Origin: Planctomycetaceae bacterium
GTDB taxonomy: Bacteria; Planctomycetota; Planctomycetia; Pirellulales; PALSA-1355
Length of the DNA: 49,674 bases
Reading direction: 5' to 3'
Assembly (NCBI GenBank): GCA_003153375.1
Contig: PLYM01000256.1
Coordinates: 1-49,674 of the forward strand
Shown: positions 3,883-10,941 of the stretch, piece after piece
Layout: each line of letters begins with the position of its first letter
Numbering within the stretch: position 1 is the stretch's first letter
The notes under the pieces: generated by a model
Databases searched by the model: none
Told to the model about the DNA's origin: nothing
The model's input: only the letters and a program-made list of their open reading frames with translations
Made by a program: the position numbers and the translations under genes

Positions 3883-4212
3883 ATGGTCCAGCACTTCGTC
3901 GATAAATCTGCTTGCGTTCACCACCGCATTTTTCCGGGCGTCGACATCTACACCATCTGCGGCGACGAGATGATGCTGTCGTTGGTCGAAATGGAGCCAC
4001 GCGCCGTGGTCGAGGAACATTCGCATCCGCACGAGCAAATGGGACTGATGCTGGAGGGCGAGGCCGATTTCACGATCGGCGGCCAGCAGATGCGGGTCAC
4101 GGCAGGGCAAATGTGGCGCATCCCGGGCGGCGTGCCGCACAAGGTTGTGGCCGGGCCGCGGTCCGTCCGCGCGCTCGATGTCTTTCATCCACCTCGCGAA
4201 GACTACAGGTAA
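3883..4212 (+). CDS. single-domain cupin protein
   Basis: A 109-residue single-cupin protein with no signal peptide, so probably cytoplasmic. Cupin motif 1 is visible as EEHSHPHEQMGLMLEGEADF (metal ligands in HSHPHE) and motif 2 as PGGVPHKV, giving a likely His/Glu metal site. Small cupins of this size include sugar-binding, dioxygenase-like and pectin-degradation KdgF-like proteins, and the sequence alone does not fix a substrate. It starts 75 nt after the peptidase and its end lies close to the start of the next gene. The three genes may therefore be co-transcribed, although their roles are not obviously linked. Confidence 0.8.
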   Translation: MVQHFVDKSACVHHRIFPGVDIYTICGDEMMLSLVEMEPRAVVEEHSHPHEQMGLMLEGEADFTIGGQQMRVTAGQMWRIPGGVPHKVVAGPRSVRALDVFHPPREDYR

Positions 4213-4264
4213 GCAAACGCACGTGACCAATCCCCAGCCACTTGCGATTGGGCGTGGGCCTGCA

Positions 4265-5080
4265 ATGGGGCGGGGATTCTTGCTGGCCGCGCGGCTTACC
4301 TGTCTCGCCACGATTCTTTCCGGCTGTTCCTTGTTGCCGAAGCCGAAAGTGCCGCTCGACGCGGCCACGGGGTTCTATCAGTCGGCCAGTCTCAGCTATC
4401 GTCTCGATGCCGGCCGGTTGCAGCAGCCACTCGACGTGGCACGGATCGAAGGCCAGGGCTTGCGTTTCGAGCAGGTCGCCAGCAGCCCCCTGCCCGACCA
4501 GTCGATCGGCGTGCTTTCGATTACCTACCCCCATCCGAACGGCCGCGCCGGTTTTGCGCTGGCCAGATTCACGCTCGACAGCGGCGCTGCGAAATCGGGT
4601 GCCAAGTCCAGCTGGAACCCCTTTGCCAAAACGTCCGACCCGAAGGTGACGACGTCGCCGGGCGAGATTCACGAGGAGTGGGTGCTCGACGTGCCGAGCG
4701 GCGAATCGGATCAGATCTTCAAACTGGTGTGCAGCGAGAGCTTTTTCAATAACCAGCATCCCGGGGCAATCGGCACGCAGTTGACGGTCAACATCAACGG
4801 CCGCAGCGTGCAGAAAAACTGGGAGCAAATCGCCGAGTTGAACACCCTGGTGCAGCGCGTTCGCCGCGACGGGCAACTGATCGCGTTCACCCGGCCCGCC
4901 ACGGCCCCCGGCGCCCCAGCAACTCAGTTCACCAGCACCAAGGCCTACAGCGAATTGCTGGCCAAAAGCGGCCCGCCAGCGACCGCCCCCGGGCCCGTCC
5001 CGCCGGCGAGTGCCTTTACGATGGTCCAGCAGCCGGTCTATCCCACGACCGCGGCGCTGCCGGCACCGCCGGCTCGCTGA
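4265..5080 (+). CDS. predicted lipoprotein, unknown function
   Basis: A 271-residue predicted lipoprotein. From the ATG at 4265 the signal is basic and hydrophobic and ends in the lipobox LSGC (Cys21). A GTG at 4223 would add 14 residues and remains possible because of an AGGTAA sequence before it. The mature part has no domain I recognise. It carries mixed beta-strand-like sequence to about residue 205 and then a Pro/Ala/Thr-rich tail (TAPGPVPPASAF), typical of a surface-exposed spacer. The start lies just after the cupin stop. Nothing visible ties it to the aromatic pathway gene downstream, from which it is separated by a terminator-bearing leader. Confidence 0.7.
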   Translation: MGRGFLLAARLTCLATILSGCSLLPKPKVPLDAATGFYQSASLSYRLDAGRLQQPLDVARIEGQGLRFEQVASSPLPDQSIGVLSITYPHPNGRAGFALARFTLDSGAAKSGAKSSWNPFAKTSDPKVTTSPGEIHEEWVLDVPSGESDQIFKLVCSESFFNNQHPGAIGTQLTVNINGRSVQKNWEQIAELNTLVQRVRRDGQLIAFTRPATAPGAPATQFTSTKAYSELLAKSGPPATAPGPVPPASAFTMVQQPVYPTTAALPAPPAR

Positions 5081-5133: not shown

Positions 5134-5162
5134 TTGCAATCCGCCCGGGCTGTGAGCACAAT
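5134..5162 (+). promoter_or_regulatory. promoter of the DAHP synthase leader
   Basis: TTGCAA (5134-5139) and CACAAT (5157-5162) are 17 nt apart. Transcription would begin at about 5169-5170, on or next to the ATG of the leader ORF, giving a leaderless leader peptide. Confidence 0.5.
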
Positions 5163-5169
5163 AGCGGGC

Positions 5170-5244
5170 ATGCGATCGATCCACCCGGTGTATTTTGAGT
5201 ATTTCTTTAGCCCGCCGAGTCGCGGGGCCGGAGGTGGAGTTTAA
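5170..5244 (+). CDS. aromatic leader peptide of DAHP synthase attenuator
   Basis: A 24-codon ORF from ATG (5170) to TAA (5242-5244), too short for most gene finders. Codons 8-13 read YFEYFF, which is two Tyr and three Phe in six codons (5191-5208). The enzyme encoded downstream commits carbon to Tyr, Phe and Trp synthesis. The arrangement matches the known logic of pheA- and trp-type leaders, where a ribosome stalls at codons of the scarce amino acid. The remainder is Pro/Ser/Gly-rich. No clear ribosome-binding site is present, and the promoter at 5134-5162 predicts a start at the AUG itself. The peptide itself probably has no function beyond being translated. Confidence 0.75.
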   Translation: MRSIHPVYFEYFFSPPSRGAGGGV

Positions 5245-5276
5245 AAACCCATCCTTGGAAGCGACCAAGAAACCAG

Positions 5277-5309
5277 CCCCGAGACTCAAGCGAGTCTCGG
5301 GGCTTTTTT
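5277..5309 (+). terminator. intrinsic terminator of the attenuator
   Basis: An 11-bp perfect stem, CCCCGAGACTC (5277-5287) with GAGTCTCGGGG (5292-5302), has a 4-nt loop and is followed by C and six T (5304-5309). It sits 100 nt before the DAHP synthase start and in its direction, as expected for attenuation. Confidence 0.9.
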
Positions 5310-5409
5310 ATTTGCCACGGCGAGAATCAGGCGAGGCGCTGCGAACGAACCAGCCAGCGGCTCGCGAAACAACACCACCCATCCATCTACTTGCACAGGA
5401 GACCCACAA

Positions 5410-6423
5410 GTGATCGTTGTCATGAAACAGGAGGCCACCGAGACTGACGTCAAACAGATGGTCAAGCGGATCGAATCGCTGGGCCTCAAGGCCCACGTCA
5501 TCGTCGGCACCGAGCGCACCGTGATCGCGGCCGTCGGCGACGATCGCAAGACCCACAAGGAATCGCTCGAGAGCGGACCCGGCGTGGCCGAAGTGCTGCC
5601 GATCCTGGCGCCGTACAAGGTTGCCAGCCTGGAATTGAAGCGCGAGCCGACGACCGTCCGCGCCGGAAAATTCGTCTGCGGAAACGGCACCATCGGCGTG
5701 ATTGCCGGTCCCTGCTCGGTCGAAACCGAGGAGCAGATTCTCGCCACGGCCAAGGCCGTCAAAGCTGCCGGCGCCACGGCGCTGCGCGGCGGCGCGTTCA
5801 AGCCCCGCACCAGCCCCTACAGTTTTCAGGGCTTGAAGGAGGACGGCCTCAAGATGCTTGCCACGGCGCGTGAGGCCACGGGCCTGGCCGTCGTGACCGA
5901 AGTCGTGGCCACCGAGGACGTGGCGCTCGTGGCCCGCTATGCCGACGTGCTCCAAGTGGGCGCCCGCAACATGCAGAATTATCGCTTGCTGGAAGCCGTC
6001 GGCGCCACCGATCGGCCGGTGCTGCTCAAACGTGGACCCAGCGCCACGATCGAGGAGTTGTTGTTGGCGGCCGAATATATCCTGAACGCCGGCAATCCGA
6101 ACGTAATGCTCTGCGAGCGGGGCATCCGCACCTTCGAAACGCACACCCGCTTCACCTTGCCGCTGGCGACCGTCGTCTACCTGCACGCCAAGACCCATCT
6201 GCCCGTGGTCGTCGACCCCAGTCACGGCACGGGGCACACCTACCTGGTCGGCCAGATGGCCGCCGCCAGCGTTGCCGCCGGAGCCGATGGCTTGATTCTG
6301 GAAGTGCATCCCGATCCCGCCAGCGCCTTGTCCGACGGGTATCAGTCGATGAACTTCAAACAGTTCGAAGAGACGATGACGCTGTGCCGCAGAGTGGCCG
6401 AAGCCGTCGGCAAGAAAATGTAG
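5410..6423 (+). CDS. aroF: 3-deoxy-7-phosphoheptulonate (DAHP) synthase, class I-beta
   Basis: Condenses phosphoenolpyruvate and erythrose 4-phosphate to DAHP, the entry step of the shikimate pathway in the cytoplasm. The 337 residues match the Thermotoga-type enzyme throughout. An N-terminal ferredoxin-like regulatory domain (about 1-70; [13 protein letters not shown]) is followed by the TIM barrel with [38 protein letters not shown] and VDPSHGTGH. In that family the N-terminal domain binds Tyr or Phe for feedback inhibition. The start is GTG at 5410 with AGGAG at 5397-5401. The gene therefore seems controlled twice by aromatic amino acids, through attenuation and through the enzyme itself. 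The symbol aroF is used in the general sense, and no neighbour belongs to the pathway. Confidence 0.95.
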
Positions 6424-7908: not shown

Positions 7909-10900
7909 TTAGGGAGAGGGAGCCGTGCTTTTCGGGGCAAATTCCGCCGGCAACTGGTCCCCTCGCTGGGTGGCGGCATTGCGGGTTGTAATGACGACCG
8001 CCTCGCGACCGTCGGCTTGCGGCCGAATGACGTAGACCAGTTTCCCGGCCGGATTGGCCAGTTGCAGCACCCGCCTCAGAATCTCGCCGGCCGGCTGCTG
8101 ACGCTCGTCGAGACCAAACGACTGGTTTCGCGTGATTCCCTCGGCCTGCAAATCGGCACCCTGAATGACGACGTCAACGTCGATCTCCTTGGCCAGCAGT
8201 TCCAGGCAACGCTCCAGGGTGTCACGCGGGAAGCTCAGCGTGATCGGCTTCGCCAGGGACGCGGCGGCGCTAGCAGAATCCTTGGGCGTCGCGGGGCTCG
8301 CAGCCACGGCGCCAGCTTGCGGCTCCTCGAACAGGGTCAGTTCGGCCCCCAGCAACAGATTGTGCGCCGCGATGGCCGGCAAGTACGCGCGCAACACGGC
8401 TTGCTGGTCGTCCACGCCGCCGCGGGTGTAGTCGGCCAGCAACTGCATCATCCGCGGAAAGCGGGTCACGATCAGCCGTCCATAGGGCGCCGGTTGCAAA
8501 CTGGCCACATAGTTCTCCACGCGCTCGGGCACTTTCTCCCAACGCGACCGCAACAGCCGCGCCAGGTCGGCCGGCGGCTTGTCGACCGAGCCGGTCGCGC
8601 GCAATTCAAGAAAGAACAGGTCGCCCAGGTGAGCGCTGGCGAGCACGCCCTGGATGCTCTCGTCCAGAAACGCGGCCAGCGGATCGCGCAGCTTTTCCAA
8701 ATCGCCCACCAGCAGGTCGTGCCCGTCGGTGAGCAGGTAGCTGGGGGCGAACAGCAAGTTCACGTGCCGCGAGGCATCGGACGAGCGCAGCAGGCGCTCC
8801 AGCCCCTTGCGCAACAACGGCGGGCCGTTGCGCTCGATGATTTCTTGCATGGCTGCCGCGGGAGCTATGGCGATCTGGCGGCCGTCGGCACCAGCGGGCA
8901 GATAGTACGCGAATCGCTCGCCTTGAAAGTACTTCGTCGACTTGTGCTCGGCTCTCTTGGGCTGTTGCCAGGCTTCGAGCAGCGTCACTTGCGAAACGCC
9001 TTGCCGCAATTGCATCGCGAAAGCCGTTTGTGTTGTGCCCGCATCGTCGGGATAGAAAGCGATCGCGAGTTGCTCGATGTTGGTGAATTCCACCCCCAGC
9101 GTGGCGAGCAACTCGGCTTTCGCTCGCTCGCCGGCGGGGCCCAAGGCGTCCAACAACTTCGCGCCCTCGGCGCTGGCCAGCAGATCGGCAGGCCGCAGAA
9201 TCAAGAACGCCTGAGCGCCCGAGGGCAGATAGTTCAAGGAAAGCGGCTCGCCGGCAGTCGGCGCAACCCAAAGCGCTGTTCCATCATCGGTTTCGATCAC
9301 CTGACCGGACGTCCTGGCGTTGGCTGGAGACTGCGGGGCGACGGACTCGGGTGCGGACAACGGCGTCTCGGCGACCGGCTTCACCTGACTCATTGCGGCC
9401 GGCGGAGCCTCGCCAGCGCCATCATCGCGAAACACTAACAGCACCGTCACGATGATCGCGACCAGCAACGCCAGGCCGACGCCGGCCATCATCAACAGGC
9501 TCTTGGACCATCGACTTTCGGCCGCGGAGTCCTGCGCGCCACCCTTGGGCCGTCGAGCCACGAGCGGCACCTGCCAGGGCTCGTCGGGCGACGAGCTCTC
9601 TTCGCCAATCGCCAACACCGAGGCATCGGGCAGTTCAACCTCGGCGGCCGCGGCCCAGTCTGGCTCGGGCGGTTGTTCGATCCGTTTCCCTTTCCGGGCG
9701 GGACTCTTTTCCACGACCGGCCCAGGGCTGTCTGGCGGCGAAGGCTGGGTGGCTTGGCCTGGCGCGGCTGACTGTGGCGCAGACTGCTCGGCCGTGGCGG
9801 GGGGGCTTGGCTTGGCCAAGCCTGGCGACTGGCGTGGCGGCGACTGCCAGGCAGGCGCGCTCCAGGCTCCATAGCCGGGTGTTAGCGCGCCGGGACCCAG
9901 CTTGGGCGGACCTGGGCGGCGACGCGCATTTTCCGCCATGTCGGTTGCAAATGGAGCGAGTAAGTGCGCGACCTGACTGGCCGTGCGGCAGCGCAACAGC
10001 GGCTCTTTGTCGATCATCTCGGCCACGAGATCGGCCAATTCTTCGGGCACGCCCGGCACCAGTCGGTCGAGCCGCTGCGGAATTTCGGCGGCATGCCGTT
10101 CGAGCCGTTGTTTGACGGCGCCGCCCGGAAACGGCACGCGGCCGGCGATCAACTCAAAGAGGATACAACCCAACGCATAGACGTCGGCCACGCCGCTGGC
10201 CGGCTGTTCGGGATCGCGGAGTTCCGGCGCCAGGTAATCGGCCATTGGCAGCTCGATCCGCTCCGTCGGCGAAGCTGCCGGAGCCAGCGGGAACGGCATC
10301 AGCTTGACCGTGCCGGTCGGGTCGACCCACAGATTTTCGGGGCACAATTTGCCGTGGGCGCTTTTCTTCTCGTGCCTGGCCACCAGCCCCAAGGCCGCCT
10401 GAAAGCCGATCCGCGCCGCCTGCTCCCAGGTCAACTTTTCGTTGCCACCAGCCAATTGTTCGCGCAAGCTTTGTCCGCGCAGATCCTCGACCACGGTAAA
10501 CGTATGGGGAGCTTCCGCGACAAATTTCAGAACGCGGACCACGTGGGGGCTTTCGATCATCGTCGCCTCTTGCGATTGCTCGGCGACGTAGTCGGGCCAT
10601 TCGTTCAGAGCCGGCAATTGGGCGGTGAACACCAGCAGCACGGGCTGCGTGCCGCCGCACGTCGCGCGAAACAAGCGAGCCAGACGGCCTCCCTCAATCC
10701 GCTCGCTGATCACGTAGTCGCCGAACACGAACGGCCCCGGGCGACCGGCCGCCAGCAGCGATACTTGATACCGCGTGAGCGCGCCGTTGGCGACGAGCCA
10801 TTGCGTCAAGGTCGCGACGTTGCCCTGCTGGGCAGCGCCCTTCATCCGCGAGAACTCGCCGTGCAACTGCTGAGCACGCGCTGTCGACAGCAGACCGCTG

Positions 10901-10941
10901 GCAATGGCGACCCGCCAAAAATCGTTGATCGAGATGGGCAT
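7909..10941 (-). CDS. membrane-anchored Ser/Thr pseudokinase with large extracytoplasmic part
   Basis: A 1010-residue protein of planctomycete kinase architecture. A helical N-terminal region (about 1-70; LVANGALTRYQVSLL) precedes a kinase-like domain (about 72-335), a Pro/Ala linker and one TM segment (about 477-502). About 500 extracytoplasmic residues follow. The kinase fold is recognisable from YLAPE (236-240) and ADVYALGCILFEL (252-264). However, the VAIK lysine is absent (VLLVF, 101-105), HRDLKPEN is replaced by HGKLCPEN (196-203) and the DFG position reads LMPF (214-217). All three catalytic residues are lost, so it is probably a pseudokinase acting as a binding or scaffold module. The last 100 residues resemble the C-terminus of the downstream zinc-ribbon protein. 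The frame is fully intact, which argues against decay. Confidence 0.8.
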   Translation of the reverse strand: MPISINDFWRVAIASGLLSTARAQQLHGEFSRMKGAAQQGNVATLTQWLVANGALTRYQVSLLAAGRPGPFVFGDYVISERIEGGRLARLFRATCGGTQPVLLVFTAQLPALNEWPDYVAEQSQEATMIESPHVVRVLKFVAEAPHTFTVVEDLRGQSLREQLAGGNEKLTWEQAARIGFQAALGLVARHEKKSAHGKLCPENLWVDPTGTVKLMPFPLAPAASPTERIELPMADYLAPELRDPEQPASGVADVYALGCILFELIAGRVPFPGGAVKQRLERHAAEIPQRLDRLVPGVPEELADLVAEMIDKEPLLRCRTASQVAHLLAPFATDMAENARRRPGPPKLGPGALTPGYGAWSAPAWQSPPRQSPGLAKPSPPATAEQSAPQSAAPGQATQPSPPDSPGPVVEKSPARKGKRIEQPPEPDWAAAAEVELPDASVLAIGEESSSPDEPWQVPLVARRPKGGAQDSAAESRWSKSLLMMAGVGLALLVAIIVTVLLVFRDDGAGEAPPAAMSQVKPVAETPLSAPESVAPQSPANARTSGQVIETDDGTALWVAPTAGEPLSLNYLPSGAQAFLILRPADLLASAEGAKLLDALGPAGERAKAELLATLGVEFTNIEQLAIAFYPDDAGTTQTAFAMQLRQGVSQVTLLEAWQQPKRAEHKSTKYFQGERFAYYLPAGADGRQIAIAPAAAMQEIIERNGPPLLRKGLERLLRSSDASRHVNLLFAPSYLLTDGHDLLVGDLEKLRDPLAAFLDESIQGVLASAHLGDLFFLELRATGSVDKPPADLARLLRSRWEKVPERVENYVASLQPAPYGRLIVTRFPRMMQLLADYTRGGVDDQQAVLRAYLPAIAAHNLLLGAELTLFEEPQAGAVAASPATPKDSASAAASLAKPITLSFPRDTLERCLELLAKEIDVDVVIQGADLQAEGITRNQSFGLDERQQPAGEILRRVLQLANPAGKLVYVIRPQADGREAVVITTRNAATQRGDQLPAEFAPKSTAPSP

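Follow-up and report, generated by a model that had tools for sequence, protein, structure and literature searches.

The class I-beta DAHP synthase gene described here is very probably controlled by transcription attenuation of the trp/phe type, mediated by a ribosome. The gene lies within a 49,674-nucleotide stretch of DNA from a Planctomycetaceae bacterium (the whole stretch that was analysed, here called the window), and sequence and folding reveal a complete classical attenuator layout upstream of it at 5134-5311. This layout consists, in order, of a putative promoter, a 24-codon leader, and a terminator of 13 bp followed by a T tract, and its RNA can form three pairings that exclude one another. 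The gene product fits the control codons: the enzyme encoded downstream of the aromatic run catalyses the first step in the synthesis of aromatic amino acids. A sequence-only reading of this DNA had proposed such an attenuator, specific for Tyr and Phe, and the element positions it gave within 5134-5309 all proved to be exact or within 1 nt. The features are as follows:

5134-5162, + strand: putative promoter, with -35 TTGCAA at 5134-5139, a 17-nt spacer, and -10 CACAAT at 5157-5162 (from the sequence and the same spacing in relatives)
5170-5244, + strand: leader peptide ORF MRSIHPVYFEYFFSPPSRGAGGGV, 24 codons plus TAA, predicted to be leaderless, with no Shine-Dalgarno sequence
5191-5208, + strand: control codons Tyr-Phe-Glu-Tyr-Phe-Phe (YFEYFF; from the sequence, the aromatic run being conserved in relatives)
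5180-5188, + strand: segment 1, which pairs with 5228-5238 to form the 1:2 hairpin (from the minimum-energy fold of 5170-5260 and covariation of the equivalent regions)
5217-5238, + strand: segment 2, of which 5217-5228 pairs with the terminator 5' arm (antiterminator) and 5228-5238 with segment 1 (from duplex energy and covariation)
5275-5287, + strand: segment 3, the terminator 5' arm (from terminator detection and folding)
5292-5310, + strand: segment 4, the terminator 3' arm at 5292-5304 and the T tract at 5305-5310 (from sequence and folding)
5397-5401, + strand: Shine-Dalgarno sequence AGGAG of the DAHP synthase gene (from the sequence)
5410-6423, + strand: class I-beta DAHP synthase with a GTG start and an N-terminal ferredoxin-like domain (PF00793, PF18152; NF006421 and TIGR01361 above cut-off)

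The terminator, AGCCCCGAGACTC-AAGC-GAGTCTCGGGGCT at 5275-5304, lies between the leader ORF and the gene; its 13 pairs are followed by TTTTTT, and when folded alone it has an energy of -26.9 kcal/mol. The sequence-only reading had also held that a segment of the leader copies the 3' arm of this terminator and can thus sequester its 5' arm. Indeed, 5217-5228 (GAGTCGCGGGGC) pairs with 5276-5287 of the 5' arm (GCCCCGAGACTC) at 11 of 12 positions, with a single mismatch and a duplex energy of -20.8 kcal/mol. The entire leader folds to -55.0 kcal/mol, which is better than all 200 of 200 dinucleotide shuffles (z -3.7). The 1:2 hairpin was likewise proposed from the sequence, as a third pairing that would act as a pause hairpin; the transcript 5170-5260 adopts it as its minimum-energy fold. 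If the RNA before 5217 is covered and the 3' arm has not yet been made, the antiterminator becomes the minimum-energy fold, at -36.0 kcal/mol. Equilibrium folding prefers the antiterminator (-40.5 kcal/mol) over the 1:2 hairpin also when no RNA is covered, as long as the 3' arm is missing. Since the antiterminator is favoured at equilibrium even without a ribosome, the off state would depend on kinetics and the order of synthesis or on ribosome movement. The fold also shows segment 2 in a local hairpin with bases immediately downstream of the aromatic run (e.g. 5211-5215); as the main competitor, this hairpin was set aside in favour of the 1:2 pairing because it does not covary (z -1.1).

The promoter call at 5134-5162 rests on the comparison with relatives; a simple sigma-70 scan did not flag this site because its score falls below the scan's threshold. 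The distance from the -10 box to the leader ATG is 7 nt, and transcription is predicted to start at the ATG or 1 nt earlier. When the loci that carry the element are searched for their best promoter-like match, 54 of 105 place the -10 box 6 or 7 nt upstream of the leader start versus about 5% in shuffles, a match that is somewhat inflated because the leader start codon was picked by promoter score among in-frame candidates, although the concentration at 6-7 nt is not a consequence of that choice. Furthermore, only 9 of the 61 chosen Pirellulales leader starts have a Shine-Dalgarno match of 4 or more in front of them, versus 91 of the 101 DAHP synthase genes of the set. A -10 box ending 5-8 nt before the leader start is found in 36 of 61 Pirellulales loci versus 1 of 16 in Planctomycetales. 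Thus, the earlier suggestion that the leader is probably leaderless agrees with the promoter spacing in Pirellulales and not with that in Planctomycetales, and the predicted leaderless start appears to be a Pirellulales trait rather than a phylum-wide one.

In the proposed mechanism, RNA polymerase would start at or beside the leader AUG, followed by a ribosome translating the leader peptide. When charged Phe- and Tyr-tRNA are abundant, this ribosome would pass the aromatic run, leaving segment 2 either beneath the ribosome or paired with segment 1. With segment 2 unavailable, the 3:4 terminator would form and halt transcription near 5310. When charged aromatic tRNA is scarce, the ribosome would instead stall on the run and block segment 1, and segment 2 would be free for segment 3. 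The resulting 2:3 pairing would prevent the terminator from forming, and the DAHP synthase gene would be transcribed.

The layout recurs across the phylum. Sequences upstream of DAHP synthase orthologues were collected from 80 loci of a genome collection together with order and phylum draws, giving 200 distinct upstreams after deduplication, and were screened for a start codon, at least 4 aromatic codons in 8, and a terminator starting 45-150 nt later (a stricter variant required at least 5 in 8). An aromatic leader ORF with a terminator is present in 105 of the 200 (92 at 5 in 8), and none of 1000 dinucleotide shuffles satisfies the same rule. In addition, sequences of 600 nt cut from the ends of these loci, used as a control, gave 0 of 96 at 5 or more in 8, even when no terminator was required. 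These counts are lower bounds because the stricter automatic screen drops some true members that have a low-scoring terminator or a long loop. A conserved aromatic-codon ORF in related Pirellulales had been suggested as a check on the reading, and at 5 in 8 the Pirellulales draw contains the ORF in 60 of 86 upstreams, 45 of them with the terminator, compared with an ORF-alone rate of 26 in 1000 shuffles; in about 30% of the Pirellulales orthologues the aromatic ORF was not found. By the stricter rule, the element is also present in 9 of 10 loci of a family of the same class (f4) and in 7 of 24 from the remainder of the phylum draw, and about half of 23 orthologues have it in the family of a locus whose record is titled Gemmataceae (L057). 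The genes upstream of the element differ between relatives, while the element itself is retained.

Compensatory changes, the other part of that check, were found in both stems. The score of segment 2 with the terminator arm of its own locus was compared, by permutation, with its scores against the arms of other loci. For the 2:3 pairing, own versus permuted partners give z = 12.9 over 92 loci, and the result is significant in each clade (z 7.2 in Pirellulales, 7.3 in Planctomycetales, and 3.2 in Gemmataceae); as the permutation treats loci as independent and does not model the tree, such values are to be read as large rather than exact. Covariation is also seen for the 1:2 pairing, with an overall z of 5.2 and a z of 4.8 within Pirellulales, but it falls short of significance outside that order (p 0.06). 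For a pairing used as a negative control, z is -1.0. Taken locus by locus, the 2:3 pairing alone is no better than shuffles at the 5% level in 53 of 92 cases.

The leaders also indicate which amino acids would be sensed. In the set with 5 in 8, Phe occurs in 92 of 92 leaders, Tyr in 87, Trp in 79, and all three in 74. Among 180 amino-acid triples with 5-6 codons, F/Y/W has the top score (92), and the next eight all include F and Y. Because 74 of the 92 leaders contain F, Y, and W, the family is best read as a general aromatic sensor, predicted to respond to Phe, Tyr, and Trp and not to Tyr and Phe alone. The Tyr/Phe label given earlier is therefore apt for the copy in the window, whose leader has Tyr and Phe and no Trp, but too narrow for the family. 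The last aromatic codon is Phe in 79% of leaders and Tyr in 20%, and Trp peaks three codons earlier, at 38%. Counting from the first nucleotide of the last aromatic codon, the median distances are 11.5 nt to segment 2, 36 nt to the stop codon, and 66 nt to the terminator; in 90% of loci, the aromatic cluster lies 78-100 nt from the terminator. If the last aromatic codon occupied the A site, the footprint of the ribosome would extend to the edge of segment 2. The fixed geometry thus fits the leading edge of a ribosome stalled at the last aromatic codon, as the model needs. A leader of this composition would be able to guard the common first step of three pathways, a step at which E. coli instead has separately regulated isoenzymes. 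It is proposed, with moderate confidence, that Planctomycetota have a phylum-wide attenuator, mostly of the Phe/Tyr/Trp kind, through which entry into aromatic synthesis is controlled by an OR gate.

Other explanations of the locus have been weighed against attenuation. It might be argued that the hairpin, being a good terminator, merely ends the upstream gene at 4145-5080, which runs in the same direction and stops at 5080, and that the aromatic ORF arose by chance. However, this gene is present only in a few close relatives, while about half of the orthologous loci, and no shuffles, share the leader, the terminator, and their spacing; with the tight distance between cluster and terminator and the covariation of the segments, this explanation becomes exceedingly improbable. 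Equally hard to credit is a T-box-like tRNA-binding or metabolite-binding riboswitch with an incidental ORF. Although a terminator-antiterminator layout before an amino-acid gene would suit such an element, the aromatic codon run would be left unexplained, and neither the window nor 18 related loci contain a match to a T-box or any other Rfam leader family when the curated covariance models are applied at the gathering score.

A slightly better case, yet still a very unlikely one, can be made for a small ORF whose product is a functional peptide, perhaps trans-acting like peTrpL, with the RNA structure being secondary. A peptide tail, SPP-RGAGGG, is recurrent in Pirellulales, and in Sinorhizobium an attenuator leader peptide and its sRNA are reported to be active in trans (PMC7298713). 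However, the stretch that encodes this tail is also segment 2, and segment 2 covaries with the terminator. Furthermore, the N- and C-termini and the length of the leader are highly variable, and both TTT/TTC and both TAT/TAC codons are in use, with recurrence limited to the aromatic run and the RNA-coding segment 2. An additional role of the leader peptide in trans, beside attenuation, is possible.

The attenuator favoured here resembles E. coli pheL-pheA and trpL-trp in its leader codons, its 1:2, 2:3, and 3:4 pairings, and its intrinsic terminator. The E. coli leaders each respond to one amino acid, have their own ribosome-binding site, and control different target genes; the planctomycete element also differs from them in that segment 2 lies inside the leader ORF. 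The closest precedent is aroR-aroF of Corynebacterium glutamicum, in which a short aromatic leader peptide with a Phe-Tyr-Phe run precedes a DAHP synthase gene whose transcription rises under Phe limitation, with Tyr reportedly having no effect (PMC11802643; PMC4046766). The actinobacterial aroR has three aromatic codons and no Trp, unlike the planctomycete leaders, which have 5-8 aromatic codons, mostly including Trp. In a survey of Actinobacteria, no RNA element was found to be conserved upstream of Phe or Tyr operons (PMC1262725). Transcripts that start at the start codon of a leader peptide have been described for Sinorhizobium meliloti trpL (PMC7298713) and for leaderless leader peptides of Streptomyces lividans (PMC8079986); these belong to other phyla, carry Trp, Leu, Ile, or other codons, and do not precede DAHP synthase. 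The sequence-only reading knew of no such element in planctomycetes, and nothing in the open PMC literature, which mostly leaves out subscription journals, contradicts it: no description of an attenuator in planctomycetes was found there, and one survey (PMC2965389) is silent on these bacteria. The mechanism itself is thus already known; what is new, and well supported, is the phylum, the mostly three-amino-acid code, and the breadth, which includes Gemmataceae.

This breadth matters because a classical attenuator requires a ribosome that translates the nascent RNA close behind the polymerase. A separation of transcription and translation has been claimed for Gemmataceae (2014 work, cited by PMC5287468 and by PMC5394234); the compartment model is contested (PMC6554331). 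Finding a probable attenuator that is conserved and covaries in this phylum, also in Gemmataceae, is genomic evidence for coupling, which has been doubted in planctomycetes, and the element offers a natural reporter for it.

Among the genes checked, the genome itself has the attenuator only at 5134-5311; no aromatic leader or terminator was found upstream of its other three DAHP synthase genes or its two chorismate-binding genes. Two of these further DAHP synthase genes adjoin prephenate dehydratase genes (L002, L003, L239, L240; contigs C278 and C9). There are 11 loci in which DAHP synthase directly follows a gene whose 3' end is like that of 7909-10941 (minus strand) in the window, with a GITRNQSFGL motif, and all 11 are without the attenuator (L015, L032, L040, L046, L047, L048, L055, L056, L192, L202, L211). 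A recurrent GC-rich hairpin (e.g. GGAGCCCCGGCGCGTATCTCGCCGGGGCTCC) with a T-rich tail, without an Rfam match and distinct from the attenuator terminator, is located 80-400 nt upstream of DAHP synthase in L038, L039, L042, L057, and L066. Outside the phylum, two to three similar loci were found, including L074 (Anaerolineae) and L075 (titled Deltaproteobacteria), whose leaders FYFYFYF and FFMFYYF precede terminators; the antiterminator pairing in loci of this type is not significant. Finally, in family f43 of the phylum (L143, L146, L148), Tyr-rich leaders (FYYFRYYYRKGR) are combined with AT-rich terminators, GCCCTAAAAC...GTTTTAGGGC, in a divergent form of the same layout.
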